Part shown: in pieces, positions 10,182 to 64,000 of the stretch | Layout: every line of letters begins with the position of its first letter | How positions within the stretch are numbered: the stretch's first letter is position 1 | NCBI RefSeq assembly: GCF_001413955.1 | Contig: NZ_LCTZ01000002.1 | Location: 1,660,501 to 1,724,500, forward strand | Direction: 5' to 3' | Length of the DNA stretch: 64,000 nt | DNA from: Flagellimonas eckloniae | GTDB taxonomy: Bacteria > Bacteroidota > Bacteroidia > Flavobacteriales > Flavobacteriaceae | Position numbers and translations under genes: made by a program | Notes under the pieces: model-generated | Told to the model about the DNA's origin: nothing | Seen by the model: only the letters and a program-made list of their open reading frames with translations | The model's database searches: none

Positions 10182-10385
10182 CAGTCTCCATTTATTTTTC
10201 AAACCTCAATCTTAGTCCAAAATTTTCTTCAAAAGGCATTAAACCTTCCCCCTTTACTCTAACATTTATGGTAGAAACAACAGATTTCGACCCGTTCACA
10301 ACAATTTGTGAATTCTAGGGGATAATACTAATATTTTAGTAAGAAAATTCTGATATTTGATTAACCCCCAAATCAAGCTTACACA

Positions 10386-12230
10386 TTGAAATCTATTGAA
10401 ACTGTTCCCCAAAACTATATTCTTAAACAACTTCCAAAGGCAACCGCCTTTGTTGATAAAAACTATTCTATAGTAGATGCTTCAGACTCTTGGTTGCACC
10501 TTTTTAATTTCAAATGGGAGGAGTTGTCAGGAAAAAGCATTCTAAATGTTTTTACTGACCACGAACAACTCACCAAAACAAAACTGAAAGAATATTTAGA
10601 CTCAAATAAGAGGAAAAAAATTCAACATGTAAAGGTCACCAAGGAAGATGAAACATGGTACGAAAGTATTTTAACACCTTGGTTTGATGAAAAAGAAAAC
10701 GTAGTAGGTACTATTTTACAATCGGAGAATATAAGCAAACGAATAGAAAAAGAACTTGAGTTAAAGAGGACTAAAATTCTGCTAAAAGCTAAATCCGAAG
10801 TTGCCAAAGTAGGCAGTTGGGAGTACGATTTAATTTCACAAAAACTCAGTTGGTCCGAGCAAACCAAAAAAATACATGAAGTTCCAAAATCTTTTGTGCC
10901 AACGGTAAGTCAAGGTATAGAGTTTTATAAACAAGGTTACAGCAGAAATAAAGTTTCAATGCTTTTCCATAGAATATTGGAAGATGGCACACCTTATAAT
11001 CAACGTTTAATATTAATAACAGCAAAGGGTGAAGAAAAATGGGTAGAAGCAGGTGGAAAAGCGATGAAGAAAAATGGTAAAATCGTTAAAATTATAGGAA
11101 CTTTCCAAGATATCAATGATCAGGTCATTGCTGAGAAAAAAACAAAAGAAAGTGAACAATTACTAAGTACCTTGATCGATAATCTTCCCATAAATGTCTA
11201 TATCAAAGACAAGGAGTCTCGAAAAATATTGGTAAACAAAACCGAATGTGACTACATAGGAACAACTGCCAAGAACATCATAGGAAAATCAGATTTTGAC
11301 CTTTACGACAAGAAAATTGCCCAAATTTCAAGAGATGAGGACCTTGAGGTAATGCGGTCGCTTAAACCTATGGTAGGTGTGGAAACCATTAACATTAAAA
11401 AAGATGGTAGCTCTACCAATTTCTTGACCTCTAAAATACCTCTTATCAATTCCAATGGAGAAGCATATGGCCTTATAGGTATGAGCATGGACATTACCCA
11501 TATAAAGGAAAAGGAAGATGAGTTACGAAATCTTATAAATATTACTGCAATCCAAAATAAAAAACTAACAAATTTTGCACATATTGTTTCCCATAATTTA
11601 AGGTCGCATACTGCCAACTTTTCCATGCTTCTGGATTTTCTTATTCATGAAAAAGAAGAAAAAGAGAAAGATCGAATCATGACAATGTTGACTCATGCTT
11701 CAGATAATCTATTGGACACTTTAGAAAACTTAAATGACGTTGTGGCCATAAGTACAAATGTCAACATTGATAAAAAACCCTTAAACCTTAAAGAAAATAT
11801 TCTTAAGGTACAACAAAACCTTGCTGCCTTCCTGGAAAAAAATAAAGTTGAGTTTGTAAACCATGTTCCAAATAAACTATCTGTTTTGAGTGTTCCTGCC
11901 TATCTGGAAAGTATTATACTTAATTTGGTTACCAACGCTGTAAAATATCGTAGTCCAAAACGAAATCCCCTAATTACATTAAGAGCAAAAAAACAGGACA
12001 ATAGTGTTGTATTAAGTGTTGAAGATAATGGATTGGGGATAGATTTAAACAAGTATGGAGGTAAAATCTTTGGAATGTACAAAACCTTTCATAACAAAAA
12101 AGATGCTAGGGGTCTTGGGCTATATATTATTAAAAACCAGATAGAGGCCATGGGCGGCAGCATAACTATTAATAGCGAAGTGGGCAAGGGCACTACGTTT
12201 AATGTCTATTTTAATGAAGAAAATAAATAG
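10386..12230 (+). CDS. PAS-domain sensor histidine kinase
   Basis: A 614-residue soluble kinase with no membrane segment. Three PAS/PAC-like sensor regions cover about 15-130, 140-250 and 255-380 (the third includes LIDNLPINVYIKDKESRKIL and GLIGMSMDITHIKEKE). A HisKA-like segment with phospho-acceptor H403 in IVSHNLRSH follows, then the ATP-binding domain with an N-box near 513 (LNLVTNAVKYRS) and G boxes (VEDNGLGIDL, ARGLGLYIIKNQIEAMGG). The start is a TTG at 10386; no ATG exists near the N-terminus of the first PAS domain. The last 17 bases overlap the downstream response regulator, its evident partner. The signal sensed is unknown. Confidence 0.9.
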   Translation: MKSIETVPQNYILKQLPKATAFVDKNYSIVDASDSWLHLFNFKWEELSGKSILNVFTDHEQLTKTKLKEYLDSNKRKKIQHVKVTKEDETWYESILTPWFDEKENVVGTILQSENISKRIEKELELKRTKILLKAKSEVAKVGSWEYDLISQKLSWSEQTKKIHEVPKSFVPTVSQGIEFYKQGYSRNKVSMLFHRILEDGTPYNQRLILITAKGEEKWVEAGGKAMKKNGKIVKIIGTFQDINDQVIAEKKTKESEQLLSTLIDNLPINVYIKDKESRKILVNKTECDYIGTTAKNIIGKSDFDLYDKKIAQISRDEDLEVMRSLKPMVGVETINIKKDGSSTNFLTSKIPLINSNGEAYGLIGMSMDITHIKEKEDELRNLINITAIQNKKLTNFAHIVSHNLRSHTANFSMLLDFLIHEKEEKEKDRIMTMLTHASDNLLDTLENLNDVVAISTNVNIDKKPLNLKENILKVQQNLAAFLEKNKVEFVNHVPNKLSVLSVPAYLESIILNLVTNAVKYRSPKRNPLITLRAKKQDNSVVLSVEDNGLGIDLNKYGGKIFGMYKTFHNKKDARGLGLYIIKNQIEAMGGSITINSEVGKGTTFNVYFNEENK

Positions 12231-56890: not shown

Positions 56891-59800
56891 GTGAAAACAT
56901 GTTTTATACCTATTGCTTTCGCCCTATCTATGATATCTTCAATGCAAGGACAGATAAAAATTGGCGATAATCCACAAAATTTAGATCCTTCCTCGGTTCT
57001 GGAACTGGAAAGTAATTCAAGGGTATTGGTCATTACCCGAATGACGACTACCCAAATGGAAAATACATCGCCATTAAGAGGCGCCTTGGTTTACAATACA
57101 GATACCCAGTGTGTCCATTTTTACACCGGAACACTTTGGGAAAACCTTTGTAATCGCCCAGATGAACAGACATTTACAACGGATGCTATCGTAAACTTTA
57201 GTCCTACCTTGGTCATAACGCAGGACGGTAGCAACTTTAATTTCGAGGTTGGTGAGATTAGGGGTGAAAATATTGTTGACACCTCCATAAATGGGGAAAT
57301 GGATATTCAACCAGGATCTATCACCGGCCAACAACTACAAGATGCTTCCATATCCTTTGATAAATTGGCTATTGGCGATAACACAGGTGAAATTTTGCAA
57401 TGGAATGGTGCCCAATGGACTCTGGTTGATATTGCCGGACTCAGCGTAACCGAAATTGATGGAATAGTTGGTAACGAGGTGGTCGGACCATTTGACACCA
57501 CTTTAAGGCTTGAAGGCACTGGTGATAGTACGAATCCATTTCTTTTGGATGTAAGTGTTGGAGGAATTGGCACGAGTGAAATTGCAAACGATGCAGTCAC
57601 AGCCAATAAAATAGACGTTTCAGTGGCGGGAACAGGACTGAACCAGGCTGTGGACGGCTCACTCGAAGTGGACGTAGCAACGTTTGCCGACGGGGACGTC
57701 ACATCAACGGACGGAACAATTGCGCTTACGGGAACAACGACAAACGCAATCTTTGAGGATATAAACTTCGATGTGGCTGACAACGCCATCACTAACGCAA
57801 AAATGGCCGATGACGCGATCAACACCGATGAGATCGTTGACGATGCCGTGACAGCCGATAAAATAGACGTTTCAGTGGCGGGAACAGGACTGAACCAGGC
57901 TGTGGACGGCTCACTCGAAGTGGACGTAGCAACGTTTGCCGACGGGGACATCACATCAACGGACGGAACAATTGCGCTTACGGGAACAACGACAAACGCA
58001 ATCTTTGAGGATATAAACTTCGATGTGGCTGACAACGCCATCACTAACGCAAAAATGGCCGATAACGCGATCAACACCGATGAGATCGTTGACGATGCCG
58101 TGACAGCCGATAAAATAGACGTTTCAGTTGCGGGAACAGGACTGAACCAGGCTGTGGACGGCTCACTCGAAGTGGACGTAGCAACGTTTGCCGACGGGGA
58201 CATCACATCAACGGACGGAACAATTGTGCTTACGGGAACAACGACAAATGCAATCTTTGAGGATGTAAACTTCGATGTGGCGGACAATGCCATCACCAAT
58301 GCTAAAATGGCGGATGACGCCATAAACACGGACGAAATCGTTGACGATGCCGTGACAGCTGATAAAATAGGAACAACTGGTGTCACAGACGCAAACAAAG
58401 TGCTGGGAACCGATACCGCCGGCGAGCCACAATGGCAGGACGCCGCAAACCTAGCAACAAGCCTTGGACAGGACGTAACATCCACAAATGGCTCCATAAC
58501 TGGAATTCAGGCTGATGCCGCACTCGTGGCAATGGACCTTGAGGTCAATGTTGATGGAACCACGATTGAAGTGGATGCAACCAATGGTTTGCAAATCCCC
58601 GACAATGCCATCACCAACGCTAAAATGGCGGATGACGCCATAAACACCGACGAAATCGTTGATGACGCCGTGACAGCCAATAAAATAGGAACAACTGGTG
58701 TCACAGACGCAAACAAAGTACTGGGAACCGATACCGCCGGCGACCCACAATGGCAGGACGCCGCAAACCTAGCAACAAGCCTTGGACAGGACGTAACATC
58801 CACAAATGGCTCCATAACTGGAACTCAGGCTGATGCCGCACTCGTGGCAATGGACCTTGAGGTTAACGTAGACGGGACAACAATTGAGGTGGACGCCACC
58901 AATGGACTGCAAGTTCCAGATGGCGGCATTACGCTCGCAAAACTGGCAGATGCCGCTGCAGACGACCAAATCTTGCAATGGAATGCCACATCCACAGCAT
59001 GGGAGCTTGCTGATGGTTCTGCTTTGCAGCAAACCATCAATGGAACTTTAGGCTCCATTTTCTTTTCGGATGGAGCAGGCAGTCTCTTGGAAAACAATAC
59101 CAATCTGTTCTGGGACAATACCTTTGATTCTGGTAATGGTGCCCTTGGCCTGGGAACAACAACGCCCCAAACCAAGCTTCATATCAGGGAAGCAGCCGGG
59201 AACAATCTCACATACGGATTACAGCTACAGAATGCAAATAACAATGCAAGTGGAGGCTCAGCAGCAGGAATCCTATTTTCCGTGGAAGCAACAGGAAACT
59301 TCGGAAAAGGGGCATTGGTCTACGAGCGAAATCAAAATTTTGCCAAAGGGGACTTCCATTTCCTTCAAAATATAGCTAGCACTACAGACAATCCTGATTT
59401 GACAGATGCTGTAATGACCATTAAGAACACAGGGGAAGTTGGTATTGGAGAGCTTAATCCCAATGCACAACTTCATGTCAAAAGAAGTGCGGGAAACAAT
59501 CTTTTCTATGGGTTACAATTGCAAAACTCAAATAACAATAATACCGGGGGTTCAGCATCTGGAATTCTGTTCGCTGTTGAAGCTACTGGCAATTACGGAA
59601 AGGGTGCTTTGGTGTATGAAAGAAAAGACCAAAATGCAAAAGGGGATTTTCATTTTCTTCAAAACGATGACAATAACCAAAATGTTCCAGATCTATCCCA
59701 CGCAATCATGACCATTAAAAACGATGGAAAAGTAGGGGTCGGAACCACTGCACCAAATTCAACACTACAGACAACGGGGTCTTTCTCAGCTCCAATTGTA

Positions 59801-60043
59801 TCTACCTTGGGCAACACAACATTGGATGCTTCACATTACACCGTTATCTTAGACGGCCTTCACTCGATAACTTTACCAGTCGCCAACACCTGTCAAGGTA
59901 GAATCTATATTATTAAGAACCCTACAGCGTTCAATCCAACTATTTCTTCTTATTTTGATAGTGTTGGAGCAAGCACCACCACCATTCCAACTGGAGTTGT
60001 TCAGCTACAAAGTGACGGAACTAACTGGCAACAAATCAACTAA
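56891..60043 (+). CDS. Large exported repeat protein, tail-fibre-like
   Basis: A 1050-residue exported protein starting with GTG at 56891. Residues 1-20 are a signal peptide. Residues 21-88 are a head domain shared with the collagen-like protein at 61374, with C74 and C87 kept in both. Residues 234-485 are three near-identical 84-residue repeats and 486-677 a second family of 106-residue repeats, rich in Asp, Ala, Thr and Gly and almost free of charge balance (DAVTADKI, DAITNAKMADDAINTDEIVD-like units). Residues 752-947 are two 98-residue modules with GIGxxxPxxxLHV openings, as in phage-tail-fibre-like proteins. The end VQLQSDGTNWQQIN has no T9SS sorting signal. A trimeric surface fibre is inferred. 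Confidence 0.85.
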   Translation: MKTCFIPIAFALSMISSMQGQIKIGDNPQNLDPSSVLELESNSRVLVITRMTTTQMENTSPLRGALVYNTDTQCVHFYTGTLWENLCNRPDEQTFTTDAIVNFSPTLVITQDGSNFNFEVGEIRGENIVDTSINGEMDIQPGSITGQQLQDASISFDKLAIGDNTGEILQWNGAQWTLVDIAGLSVTEIDGIVGNEVVGPFDTTLRLEGTGDSTNPFLLDVSVGGIGTSEIANDAVTANKIDVSVAGTGLNQAVDGSLEVDVATFADGDVTSTDGTIALTGTTTNAIFEDINFDVADNAITNAKMADDAINTDEIVDDAVTADKIDVSVAGTGLNQAVDGSLEVDVATFADGDITSTDGTIALTGTTTNAIFEDINFDVADNAITNAKMADNAINTDEIVDDAVTADKIDVSVAGTGLNQAVDGSLEVDVATFADGDITSTDGTIVLTGTTTNAIFEDVNFDVADNAITNAKMADDAINTDEIVDDAVTADKIGTTGVTDANKVLGTDTAGEPQWQDAANLATSLGQDVTSTNGSITGIQADAALVAMDLEVNVDGTTIEVDATNGLQIPDNAITNAKMADDAINTDEIVDDAVTANKIGTTGVTDANKVLGTDTAGDPQWQDAANLATSLGQDVTSTNGSITGTQADAALVAMDLEVNVDGTTIEVDATNGLQVPDGGITLAKLADAAADDQILQWNATSTAWELADGSALQQTINGTLGSIFFSDGAGSLLENNTNLFWDNTFDSGNGALGLGTTTPQTKLHIREAAGNNLTYGLQLQNANNNASGGSAAGILFSVEATGNFGKGALVYERNQNFAKGDFHFLQNIASTTDNPDLTDAVMTIKNTGEVGIGELNPNAQLHVKRSAGNNLFYGLQLQNSNNNNTGGSASGILFAVEATGNYGKGALVYERKDQNAKGDFHFLQNDDNNQNVPDLSHAIMTIKNDGKVGVGTTAPNSTLQTTGSFSAPIVSTLGNTTLDASHYTVILDGLHSITLPVANTCQGRIYIIKNPTAFNPTISSYFDSVGASTTTIPTGVVQLQSDGTNWQQIN
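57590..58345 (+). repeat. Three tandem 252-base repeats in the fibre gene
   Basis: Units start at 57590, 57842 and 58094, each exactly 252 bases (84 codons). Units 1 and 2 differ at only a few bases; unit 3 matches them at first, but its last third uses other synonymous codons. The repeats are clearly richer in G and C than the flanking genes. Confidence 0.95.
58346..58921 (+). repeat. Second repeat family in the fibre gene (318-base unit and a partial copy)
   Basis: A 318-base unit (58346-58663) and a second copy from 58664 to about 58921 that leaves the pattern after GLQVPD. Both contain GTTGVTDANKVLGTDTAG and QDAANLATSLGQDVTSTNGS. The last part of the first unit (DNAITNAKMADDAINTDE) is shared with the 252-base family. 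Confidence 0.92.
59144..59731 (+). repeat. Two tandem 98-residue tail-fibre-like modules
   Basis: Modules begin at 59144 (LGLGTTTPQTKLHI) and 59438 (VGIGELNPNAQLHV), 294 bases apart, and a third opening, VGVGTTAPNSTL, lies 294 bases later at 59732. The protein copies are alike (YGLQLQNxNNN, GALVYER, KGDFHFLQN) but the DNA has diverged, so they are older than the 252-base repeats. Confidence 0.88.
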
Positions 60044-61209
60044 TGAAAAATTGGTCTTTTATAGCGTTTCTTTTTTGGGCTAGTATAATTTGCGGACAAA
60101 CTGCAATGCACAATACCGGTTCAATCCGTATTCACACCAATGGAAATCTGGGATTCCACACCAATTTTATAAATGATTCCCCTTTTGACAATAACGAAGG
60201 ACTTGCAGGCTTTTATGGTAACGAGAATATTGAGGTACTCGGAAGTATCCCTCCCTCTTTTTCAGATGTTGAGATTTTTGTTCTCAACAATGTCTCACTA
60301 GAAAACTCTATAGATATTAACAACAATACCAATTTCATAAGTGGAAATGTCCAATCTCCACATGATGATCAGACCATAAATTTAAACTTCACCGATACTG
60401 GTTTTTTTACAGGCGAAAGCGATATTTCCAAAATAACCGGTTTTGCCGGAGCCAAAAATCGGACGTTGTTCTCTTTTCCTGTTGGTGATGAGGACATGCT
60501 CAGGCCCCTTCTTTTGGAATCGGAGGAACAAACATCCTTAGCAATATGCGCCTACTTTTTTGAAAACCCATCAGTACCAATTTCACTATCACAGACCTTT
60601 GATACAACCCAAAAAGCGAGGGATATTGGTACAATTACAGACAAAGAATTTTGGATTGCACAAAATGATGCGATTTCTACAATAACAATAAGTTGGAACG
60701 AAAGAAGTGATTTAGAATCCATTTCAAATATTGATATAGATGAAATTATCGTAGTTGGTTGGAGCAAACAATCCAATCAATGGGAAATAATCGGCAGTGA
60801 TGCTTTTAGCGGTGACATAAATCAAGGGTTTGTAACCTCTTTACCTTTTGTGCCCAGTGATTTCGCTGCCATTACCTTTGGTACAATCCCATTGCCAATG
60901 GATACTTTTGCAGTAAACAATCCAACACTAGGCAACTATTTTTTAAGTCCAAATGGAGACGGTACAAATGATTTTTTAGTAATTGAAGGCATGTCAGAAT
61001 CTCCCAACAACAGTCTTCGAATATTCAATCGTTTTGGACAAAAAGTATTTGAAAAAAACAATTATGTGGATGAGTTCACTGGATTATCAAATACTGGAAG
61101 TTTTTATTTAAGTCAAGATATTGGACTCCCTGAAGGGGTCTATTATTATCTGGTTGTTTTGGATGATCTGGAGCTTGAATACCAAGGAATTCTCTTCCTT
61201 GACAGATAA
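60043..61209 (+). CDS. Secreted protein with T9SS type B (gliding-motility-type) sorting domain
   Basis: A 388-residue exported protein: signal peptide to about CGQ18, a beta-rich region with MHNTGSIRIHTNGNLGFHTN, and a C-terminal domain at about 300-388 of the gliding-motility-associated type (YFLSPNGDGTNDFLVIEG, LRIFNRFGQKVFEKNNY, LPEGVYYYLVVLDDLELEYQ). This type B domain directs passage through the type IX secretion system, and such proteins are often large adhesins. The ATG overlaps the stop of the fibre gene (TAATG), so translation is coupled. It is the only protein of the locus with a visible T9SS signal and could anchor or carry the fibres (inference). Confidence 0.9.
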   Translation: MKNWSFIAFLFWASIICGQTAMHNTGSIRIHTNGNLGFHTNFINDSPFDNNEGLAGFYGNENIEVLGSIPPSFSDVEIFVLNNVSLENSIDINNNTNFISGNVQSPHDDQTINLNFTDTGFFTGESDISKITGFAGAKNRTLFSFPVGDEDMLRPLLLESEEQTSLAICAYFFENPSVPISLSQTFDTTQKARDIGTITDKEFWIAQNDAISTITISWNERSDLESISNIDIDEIIVVGWSKQSNQWEIIGSDAFSGDINQGFVTSLPFVPSDFAAITFGTIPLPMDTFAVNNPTLGNYFLSPNGDGTNDFLVIEGMSESPNNSLRIFNRFGQKVFEKNNYVDEFTGLSNTGSFYLSQDIGLPEGVYYYLVVLDDLELEYQGILFLDR

Positions 61210-61373
61210 TTTTAGCAAGAATTTTCTCGTAGAATTTTATTGTAATCGGTTAAAATGTAATATTTTAGACCGTCAAATGGTGTTTTGCAACATTTCTCTG
61301 TGACTACGCAACATTATCTGGCACTTCATCGACCTCCATAGTAATTTTAACATACTGTCAAAACTAGGTCGTG

Positions 61374-64000
61374 ATGAGATTGAATACATATTTACCCCTT
61401 TTTGCCCTTTTATTTTCCTTTTTTGCATTTTCGCAAGTTAAAGTCGGTTCCAATCCAAATGTAATCGATTCTGCGTCAATTCTGGAATTAGAAAGCGCCA
61501 ATAAAGCGCTAGTCTTAACGAGATTGACATCAGCCCAAATGCAAAGTATTGCACCTCTAAATGGTGCCTTAGTATATAATATAGAAACATCCTGTGTACA
61601 CTATTTTAATGGCTCTCAATGGATTAATCTTTGTAATTCATCAAATACATCAAATCTCACATTTGTCGATAACAATGATGGAACCTTTTCTATTCTTGAT
61701 GACGGTTTAGTAGTTTTCACATCACCAGATTTAACAGGGGACCAAGGACCAGTTGGAGACCAAGGGCCAATCGGTGACCAGGGTCCAGTTGGAGATCAAG
61801 GACCAATCGGAGACCAAGGACCAATCGGAGACCAGGGTCCAGTGGGAGACCAGGGTCCAGTTGGAGATCAGGGACCCGTCGGCGACCAAGGTCCGGTTGG
61901 AGACCAAGGGCCAATCGGAGACCAGGGTCCAGTTGGAGACCAAGGACCAATCGGAGACCAAGGACCAGTCGGAGACCAGGGTCCAGTGGGAGACCAGGGA
62001 CCAATCGGTGACCAAGGACCAATCGGTGACCAAGGACCAGTCGGAGACCAGGGTCCAGTTGGAGATCAGGGACCAATCGGTGACCAAGGACCAGTAGGTG
62101 ACAAAGGACCAGTAGGTGACCAAGGACCACAAGGAATAGTTGGAGACCAAGGACCAATCGGAGACCAAGGACCAGTCGGAGACCAGGGTCCAGTGGGAGA
62201 CCAGGGTCCAGTTGGAGATCAGGGACCCATCGGGGACCAAGGGCCAATCGGTGACCAGGGTCCAGTAGGTGACCAGGGACCCATCGGGGACCAAGGGCCG
62301 GTTGGAGATCAGGGACCCGTCGGCGACCAAGGTCCGGTTGGAGACCAAGGGCCAATCGGAGACCAGGGACCAATCGGTGACCAAGGACCAATCGGTGACC
62401 AAGGACCAGTCGGAGACCAGGGTCCAGTTGGAGATCAGGGACCAATCGGTGACCAAGGACCAGTAGGTGACAAAGGACCAGTAGGTGACCAAGGTCCACA
62501 AGGAATAGTTGGAGACCAAGGGCCAGTCGGAGACCAGGGACCAGTAGGTGACCAAGGACCAATCGGAGACCAAGGTCCAGTGGGAGACCAAGGACCAATC
62601 GGAGACCAAGGGCCAGTCGGAGACCAGGGTCCAGTTGGAGATCAGGGACCAATCGGTGACCAAGGACCAATCGGTGACCAAGGACCACAAGGAATAGTTG
62701 GAGATCAAGGACCAGTTGGAGACCAAGGACCAGTCGGAGACCAGGGTCCAGTTGGAGATCAAGGACCAATCGGTGACCAAGGACCAGTCGGAGACCAAGG
62801 ACCAGTAGGTGATCAGGGTCCAGTTGGAGACCAGGGACCGATAGGTGATCAAGGACCGGTTGGAGACCAGGGTCCAGTTGGAGACCAAGGACCAATCGGT
62901 GACCAAGGACCAATCGGTGATCAAGGACCGGTTGGAGACCAAGGACCAGTTGGAGACCAGGGGCCAATCGGTGACCAGGGACCAATCGGGGACCAAGGAC
63001 CACAAGGAATAGTTGGAGATCAAGGACCAGTCGGTGACCAGGGACCAGTTGGAGATCAAGGACCAATCGGAGACCAAGGACCAGTCGGAGACCAGGGTCC
63101 AGTGGGAGATCAGGGACCCATCGGTGACCAGGGACCAATCGGTGACCAAGGACCACAAGGAATAGTTGGAGACCAAGGGCCAGTCGGAGACCAGGGACCA
63201 GTAGGTGACCAAGGACCAATCGGTGACCAGGGACCAATCGGTGACCAAGGACCACAAGGAATAGTTGGAGACCAAGGGCCAGTCGGAGACCAGGGACCAG
63301 TAGGTGACCAAGGACCAATCGGAGACCAAGGTCCAGTGGGAGACCAAGGACCAATCGGAGACCAAGGGCCAGTCGGAGACCAGGGTCCAGTTGGAGATCA
63401 GGGACCAATCGGTGACCAAGGACCAATCGGTGACCAAGGGCCAATCGGTGACCAGGGTCCAGTTGGAGACCAAGGACCAATTGGAGACCAGGGACCAATC
63501 GGAGACCAAGGACCAGTAGGTGACCAAGGACCAATCGGAGACCAAGGACCAATTGGAGATCAGGGACCAATCGGAGACCAAGGACCAGTTGGAGATCAGG
63601 GACCAATCGGTGACCAGGGTCCAGTTGGAGATCAAGGACCAATCGGAGACCAAGGACCAATCGGAGACCAGGGTCCAGTTGGAGATCAAGGACCAATCGG
63701 AGACCAAGGGCCAATCGGTGACCAAGGACCCATCGGGGACCAAGGACCAGTCGGAGACCAGGGTCCAGTGGGTGATCAGGGTCCAGTTGGAGACCAGGGA
63801 CCGATAGGTGATCAAGGACCGGTTGGAGACCAGGGTCCAGTTGGAGACCAAGGACCAATCGGTGACCAAGGACCAATCGGTGATCAAGGACCGGTTGGAG
63901 ACCAGGGACCCATCGGGGACCAAGGGCCAATCGGTAACCAAGGACCAGTCGGTGACCAGGGTCCAGTGGGAGACCAAGGACCAATCGGAGACCAAGGGCC
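61374..64000 (+). CDS. Collagen-like giant surface protein (partial, runs off the window)
   Basis: An exported protein seen for 875 residues with no stop before the window end. Residues 1-20 are a signal peptide. Residues 21-88 are the head domain shared with the 1050-residue fibre protein, including C74 and C87. Residues 89-121 form a short linker. From G122 on every third residue is glycine: the unit is GDQGPV or GDQGPI, broken six times by GPQGIV without losing the Gly-X-Y phase. Only rare changes occur (GDK, GNQ). The tract is highly acidic with almost no basic residues and would form a collagen triple helix. C-terminal domain and sorting signal lie outside the window. The 164 bases before it hold no gene or clear terminator. 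Confidence 0.93.
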   Translation, partial: MRLNTYLPLFALLFSFFAFSQVKVGSNPNVIDSASILELESANKALVLTRLTSAQMQSIAPLNGALVYNIETSCVHYFNGSQWINLCNSSNTSNLTFVDNNDGTFSILDDGLVVFTSPDLTGDQGPVGDQGPIGDQGPVGDQGPIGDQGPIGDQGPVGDQGPVGDQGPVGDQGPVGDQGPIGDQGPVGDQGPIGDQGPVGDQGPVGDQGPIGDQGPIGDQGPVGDQGPVGDQGPIGDQGPVGDKGPVGDQGPQGIVGDQGPIGDQGPVGDQGPVGDQGPVGDQGPIGDQGPIGDQGPVGDQGPIGDQGPVGDQGPVGDQGPVGDQGPIGDQGPIGDQGPIGDQGPVGDQGPVGDQGPIGDQGPVGDKGPVGDQGPQGIVGDQGPVGDQGPVGDQGPIGDQGPVGDQGPIGDQGPVGDQGPVGDQGPIGDQGPIGDQGPQGIVGDQGPVGDQGPVGDQGPVGDQGPIGDQGPVGDQGPVGDQGPVGDQGPIGDQGPVGDQGPVGDQGPIGDQGPIGDQGPVGDQGPVGDQGPIGDQGPIGDQGPQGIVGDQGPVGDQGPVGDQGPIGDQGPVGDQGPVGDQGPIGDQGPIGDQGPQGIVGDQGPVGDQGPVGDQGPIGDQGPIGDQGPQGIVGDQGPVGDQGPVGDQGPIGDQGPVGDQGPIGDQGPVGDQGPVGDQGPIGDQGPIGDQGPIGDQGPVGDQGPIGDQGPIGDQGPVGDQGPIGDQGPIGDQGPIGDQGPVGDQGPIGDQGPVGDQGPIGDQGPIGDQGPVGDQGPIGDQGPIGDQGPIGDQGPVGDQGPVGDQGPVGDQGPIGDQGPVGDQGPVGDQGPIGDQGPIGDQGPVGDQGPIGDQGPIGNQGPVGDQGPVGDQGPIGDQG
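61737..64000 (+). repeat. 18-base minisatellite coding the collagen-like tract
   Basis: At least 2264 bases of an 18-base unit (gly-asp-gln-gly-pro-val/ile) with synonymous third-base variation and no break in frame. Six 18-base GPQGIV segments start at 62124, 62493, 62682, 62997, 63150 and 63249. Larger blocks are duplicated: 61990-62151 with 62359-62520, 62496-62683 with 63252-63439, and 62808-62940 with 63771-63903. Confidence 0.96.

Follow-up and report, generated by a model that had tools for sequence, protein, structure and literature searches.

The window analysed here, the whole 64,000-nucleotide stretch G000:C2:1660501-1724500 of a Flagellimonas eckloniae genome (4.13 Mb, two contigs), ends inside a giant gene, A2, which codes for a collagen-like stalk protein, and we have followed this gene into the DNA beyond the window (L004), extending the window numbering past 64000 as "window-equivalent" positions (Table 1). 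A2 lies in a Flavobacteriaceae locus with the order A1-B1-A2-(A3)-B2, in which the A genes code for stalks with a common N-domain and the B genes for proteins of ~385 amino acids (aa) bearing the type-B signal of the type IX secretion system (T9SS). Our results show the architecture of the A2 protein, a Gly-X-Y pattern under selection, head and stem as separate modules, and a conserved gene order with T9SS type-B partners.

Read from its ATG (61374; a GTG at 61371 is in the same frame), A2 begins with a signal peptide, assigned by eye, and an N-domain in which Q21, K23, G25, E38, S41, R50, M56, G64, N69 and W83 are invariant in 64 aligned sequences. Residues 122-1489 form 456 consecutive triplets with Gly in 456/456, and the C-terminus is a 103-aa head ending in FMFTILDL. 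An earlier note on this DNA had read at least 754 residues of Gly-X-Y without a missing glycine, and the window indeed holds 251 triplets (753 residues) and one partial triplet, none of them lacking it. The note had also advised reading past 64000 for the tract end and a C-terminal domain, which are found after 456 triplets and as the head, and the frameshift or stop that it feared beyond the window is ruled out, since the frame runs to a normal stop after the globular domain. Two antisense frames (754-755 aa) are open over the in-window tract (61717-63995, minus strand) because the repeat has an 18-bp period.

Table 1. Coordinates of the features of the A2 locus and of a second A2-type promoter element
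Feature	Position	Strand	Description
A2 giant collagen-stalk gene	61374..64000, on to the stop at window-equivalent 66152 (L004:375-5153)	+	1592 aa from ATG
A2 signal peptide and conserved N-domain	61374..61736	+	121 aa, residues 1-121
A2 Gly-X-Y tract, part in window	61737..64000	+	251/456 triplets; tract ends at window-equivalent 65840
A2 head	L004:4842-5150	+	C-terminal, 103 aa, after the tract
A2-slot promoter-like element	61280..61350	+	pair of CACAACA-type direct repeats, spaced 21 bp, with a TAnnTTTT(A/G)-like box at a fixed distance
A1 paralogous stalk gene	56891..60043	+	1050 aa; same N-domain (44%); stem of other repeats
B1 partner gene	60043..61209	+	388 aa; type IX type-B C-terminal domain, TIGR04131 35.2 bits (cut-off 35), CHU_C PF13585
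A3	L004:5165-5815 (window-equivalent 66164-66814)		downstream of A2; 216 aa, stem-less; N-domain-like part (30%) and another C-terminal domain
Second A2-type promoter element	10277..10337	+	ahead of the PAS-domain histidine kinase gene 10386-12230

The A2 tract is neither a chance pattern nor an unselected repeat, because its synonymous sites have drifted while the amino-acid pattern has been held. All four glycine codons are used (285/123/43/5 across the 456 glycines), Asp, Gln, Pro, Val and Ile are each encoded by several codons, and the 210 units that fit G[D/N][Q/K]GP[V/I], together 420 of the 456 triplets, comprise 48 distinct 18-mers with a third-position entropy of 0.7-1.5 bits; these units were chosen by amino-acid pattern, and the constancy of codon positions 1 and 2 is thus partly built in. 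A genome of the same genus (G229) carries the same gene, with an N-domain at 96% and an identical head. There the gene is split over two contigs, at least 265 triplets running to a contig end and 202 starting from that of another, and these ends overlap by no more than 20 bases, so that the two parts are summed as at least 467 triplets. V, I and N units follow one another there quite differently than in A2 and the ends are kept, which points to fast repeat turnover under which ends and amino-acid pattern stay. On the earlier suspicion that the tract is an assembly expansion, the gene proves to be real, its ends and great length recurring in the G229 relative, although the relative breaks inside the tract. 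A2 holds an 804-bp exact repeat at an offset of 2448 bp, so that 456 triplets is the number as assembled. We consider an assembly artefact very unlikely as the origin of the tract. Contig ends cut 6 of the 21 collagen tracts found in the family, and in Dokdonia a collagen triple helix repeat gene absent from the draft genome was reportedly recovered by PacBio sequencing (PMC4974333).

The tract is built from the triplets GDQ (218), GPV (109), GPI (101), GPQ and GIV (11 each), GDK (3), GNQ, GPS and GNN (one each), so that X is mostly Pro (222) or Asp (221) and Y is Gln (230), Val (120) or Ile (101). As the earlier note had it, this is a giant, perfect and acidic tract with hardly any positive charge: 221 Asp face 3 Lys, with no Glu or Arg, for a net charge of -218, and at -15.9 per 100 aa A2 exceeds in negative charge all other collagen-bearing members among the 21 examined. 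The idea that missing Lys pairs set this composition apart is not supported as put by comparison with its own family, where 10/21 members have no more than 0.4 Lys+Arg per 100 aa and 21/21 carry a net negative charge (-5.5 to -15.9 per 100 aa); no special stabilising device therefore follows from the A2 sequence alone, and the reliance on divalent ions or on hydrophobic Val/Ile contacts proposed in the earlier note is a conjecture. Pro occupies none of the Y positions, and hydroxyproline of the animal type in Y is therefore impossible in this tract. The stability of collagen helices has been credited to Pro in X, to hydration networks of polar residues and to charge pairs (PMC8968730, PMC7824840); Pro in X (222/456 triplets) and polar Y residues (Gln, 230) are available in A2. 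PF01391 matches A2 with E 2e-192, and the NCBIfam/Pfam models for Scl2/SclB, Lcl, Scl1 and Cementoin match it far above cut-off, the best stretches of the NCBIfam SclB, Lcl and SclA matches lying in the repeat region (residues 965-1498) and not in shared end domains. Since it is the collagen repeat that triggers these curated models, automatic gene names will mislead.

The head gave no Pfam match up to E 1. Its predicted fold (a monomer model) may resemble the trimeric tips of phage tailspikes and pyocin fibres as well as H-type lectins, and A2 is probably tipped by a lectin-like head. The same head is also found on beta-repeat stalks: beta strand repeat-containing proteins of Cellulophaga, Maribacter and Zobellia have both the N-domain and the head (listed head identity mostly 64-77%), and eight or more triplets in a row occur in 0/74 of these proteins. 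The stem therefore behaves as an exchangeable spacer.

A2 itself (P0001, P0002) matches none of PF13585, TIGR04131 and TIGR04183 and apparently lacks a T9SS signal. Downstream of it, B2 (391 aa) carries such a signal (TIGR04131 41.6 bits, cut-off 35, and PF13585); it is 39% identical to B1, its nearest named relatives are from an uncultured Allomuricauda (96%) and Flagellimonas, and the type-B signal domain of both B proteins is compatible with an Ig-like fold. No porP/sprF-like gene adjoins the locus; the genome has 10 PorP/SprF genes over cut-off, the nearest ~107 kb from B1, and of ten other signal-domain matches in the genome six adjoin such a gene and four (weak, E 1e-6 to 8e-5) do not. 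The stem of A1 grows by whole modules, its DNA (57588-58912) containing near-identical tandem repeats of 252 bp (3.1 copies, 95%) and 318 bp (2 copies, 93%); a DUF5907 match is under cut-off (E 0.005). The C-terminal domain of A3 also ends a 483-aa collagen-free protein in an A2 slot (L067) and a protein of 3830 aa (L073).

How widespread is this arrangement? Among 299 genomes of the family, the N-domain was found in 65 (E <1e-20), the N-part of B in 66 (E <1e-30) and both in 63, at thresholds chosen after viewing the lists (at E 0.001 the first two counts are 170 and 80). Our locus sample, 60 stretches from 52 other genomes picked for N-domain or B matches together with the own locus, yielded 77 A open reading frames (ORFs). 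In 48 of the 61 complete ones a B gene lies directly downstream (-70 to +138 bp), in 10 it is further off and in 3 there is none, the other 16 of the 77 being unjudgeable. Where two stalks are present the usual order is A1-B1-A2-B2, with variants such as L068, L070 and L074. In the tree of N-domains, which is weakly resolved, a 35-row group (SH-aLRT 89) includes, besides the own A1, the first stalk of L061, L063-L067, L069, L071, L072, L075, L076 and L089-L091; collagen occurs in 0/31 classifiable rows of this A1 group, and all 21 collagen rows fall outside it.

At least 30 triplets are present in 21 A ORFs, from 18 of the 53 genomes examined and 16 genera (by genus codes). Seventeen of these tracts are unbroken and four have breaks (L065, L068, L069, L091), and the longest tract in each of the 15 complete collagen ORFs has 219-578 triplets except in L073 (61 triplets). 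The X-Y repeats vary widely, with types such as GADGPQ, GLTGATGPQGDT and GDKGTNGID; GDQGP[V/I] is common to the own and G229 tracts, and the tracts of L061, L063 and L064 are alike. The family retains glycine, length and acidity while much of the remaining tract is rewritten. L093 (G059) has two adjacent collagen stalks of 219 and 236 triplets, free of Lys and Arg, with near-copy tracts and almost identical N-domains, which looks like a recent tandem duplication. Elsewhere in the own genome, at G000:C2:2261923-2262690 and 2825580-2825690, are three short ORFs of 214-218 aa whose collagen repeats exceed the Pfam cut-off.

The leader of A2 contains the element TTTCACAACA-N11-T(A/T)CACAACA followed by the TAnnTTTT(A/G)-like box, an arrangement that we liken to LytTR-type direct repeats, two short repeats ~21 bp apart upstream of a core promoter. 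It precedes 20 of the 77 A ORFs (14 of the 21 with collagen and 6 others), none of them in the 35-row A1 group, against a background of 1.05% of 4000 random 260-nt windows; 11 of the 20 leaders are those in which the element was first noticed. The repeat period is exactly 21 bp in 20/20 sites (20-23 were allowed in the search), and the TAnnTT box, which was outside the selection criteria, stands at column 65 in 20/20 and at any other offset from 41 to 70 in at most one. Across 607 kb from 40 family loci, 14 sites score above 20 bits and the next best 14.6; ten of the 14 belong to the model, and each of the remaining four (L067, L074, L092, L097) precedes an A gene by 16-279 bp.

In the own genome the element has 33 matches at E 1 and 10 at E <0.002 (rough E-values), with the collagen gene ranked first. 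The better sites stand before the genes for the PAS kinase (10386), for two TPR histidine kinases, of which one has two sites, for a GNAT protein at a distance of 265 bp, for a secreted protein whose start codon is not ATG, and for a protein of 228 aa that is N-domain-like by eye and was not found by the N-domain search; the better sites 886352 and 2791669 have no gene at promoter distance. Weaker sites (E 0.015-0.045) precede two more large secreted proteins, and a single exopolysaccharide cluster has them at three places. At E 0.01, each of four other genomes has 11-16 sites, with the collagen-slot gene best every time. For the three of these genomes that belong to other genera we examined 22 sites. 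The second TPR kinase has orthologues 243-351 bp behind sites in two genomes, and the GNAT protein has them 300-336 bp behind, likewise in two (47-56% identity); at 10 of the 22 sites the next 420 bp contain no ORF of 80 aa. Found before the collagen gene as well as before histidine kinases, secreted proteins and, with lower scores, exopolysaccharide genes, the element is likely to mark an attachment/biofilm regulon. A row of giant secreted proteins, some behind an A2-type element, is found in L216 (G000:C2:1596000-1612500), including one of 1405 aa with P-domain and DUF11 and one ORF of at least 2190 aa that is repeat-rich by eye.

What could be the role of A2? We consider it fairly probable that A2 is a lollipop-shaped surface adhesin, whose uninterrupted trimeric collagen helix would hold a small trimeric head, like a lectin or tailspike tip, far from the cell. 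Three A2 chains would wind their Gly-X-Y tracts into a single triple helix of ~0.4 micrometre. A2 would be made with a Sec signal peptide, and the neighbouring B protein, probably B2 and perhaps together with the stem-less A3, would cross the outer membrane by the T9SS, be held by a PorP/SprF-like barrel and export or anchor A2 through the conserved N-domain. Selection on the stem spacer may act on the periodicity of glycine and on great length, not on the letters in X and Y. Expression would be tied through the shared promoter element to histidine kinases and probably to exopolysaccharide genes, and because the element is shared with these genes the job of A2 is likely attachment or biofilm. 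More broadly, we tentatively propose, with chances a little short of even, a two-part surface system of the Flavobacteriaceae, in which trimeric A stalks without T9SS signal, whose stems are collagen or beta-repeats and whose lectin-like heads can be swapped, are delivered or held in trans by dedicated small type-B partners. The A2 slot would have a promoter of its own under the control of an activator, common to it and to histidine kinases and exopolysaccharide genes.

A2 might instead be shed, or assembled into a fibre of the biofilm matrix, with a head that mainly starts and registers the trimer. This would suit the weaker-scoring promoter elements in the exopolysaccharide cluster, the long, highly acidic and uniform helix, the trimer-tip-like predicted fold of the head and a C-terminus without anchor motif; however, heads on different stems suggest binding diversity, and we regard a matrix fibre as unlikely. 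Much less probable is a neutral or selfish expansion of tandem repeats that gave a tract without a stalk role. The exact internal repeat, the unit order rewritten between two species of one genus and the contig ends inside tracts are what such an expansion might leave, but it is largely contradicted by synonymous codons that vary widely under a constant amino-acid pattern, and long Gly-X-Y tracts of widely differing repeats in so many genera and the conserved promoter element before the slot also speak against it. Hardly credible, finally, is a derivation from phage tail-fibre genes, or another injection or contractile-tail device: the predicted fold of the head may be like that of tailspike and pyocin-fibre tips, and the A1 N-domain has a weak, non-significant match to Mtd_N (E 0.24), but signal peptides and T9SS partners are present, different genera have the locus with its gene order unchanged, and no structural phage gene was seen among the neighbours by eye (no phage family library was run).

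Whatever their exact role, very long unbroken Gly-X-Y tracts (219-578 triplets, 14/15 complete cases) now have a defined, recurring genetic setting. The helix of animal type I collagen has ~338 triplets, and the A2 tract is thus longer than the helix of human tendon collagen. With X and Y rewritten several times while glycine and great length are kept, the family offers a set of collagens without hydroxyproline, roughly half of which have almost no Lys or Arg, that is useful for learning what stabilises the helix. If B acts in trans, the type IX system would have a new means of displaying proteins that do not carry its signal. The finding also helps to account for collagen-stalk genes that are cut or missing in draft genomes.

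Prokaryotic collagens are of a known kind. No description of the locus was found in the open-licence literature on collagen-like proteins with type IX secretion, SprB, Bacteroidetes or Flavobacteriaceae, and as far as our searches go neither the pairing with T9SS proteins nor the exchange of stems nor the common promoter has been described. Scl1/Scl2 of Streptococcus, BclA of Bacillus and Lcl of Legionella have, like A2, a Gly-X-Y stem and a globular end domain with no need for hydroxyproline, and Lcl is described as a trimeric lollipop with a glycosaminoglycan-binding head (PMC11162425). A2 differs from all of them in its 456 triplets, its other head fold, its T9SS type-B neighbours and the occurrence of the same ends with a non-collagen stem; it has its 103-aa head in place of the C-terminal LPXTG wall anchor of Scl1/Scl2 (NF038329, NF038330), and it lacks the C-terminal DUF1566 domain of Lcl (NF046116). 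B1 and B2 share the type-B signal with SprB/SprF and other type-B substrates of Flavobacterium johnsoniae, and resemble orphan type-B substrates (PMC12618676) in having no adjoining SprF-like gene. In contrast with SprB, the long stalk and the export signal are here on separate polypeptides. The C-terminus of GhpA, the grappling hook of Aureispira, matches the C-terminal domain of the B family by sequence (9flp, E 4e-12), but GhpA is a single chain of 5898 residues in 9flp, unlike the separate A and B proteins of the locus described here.
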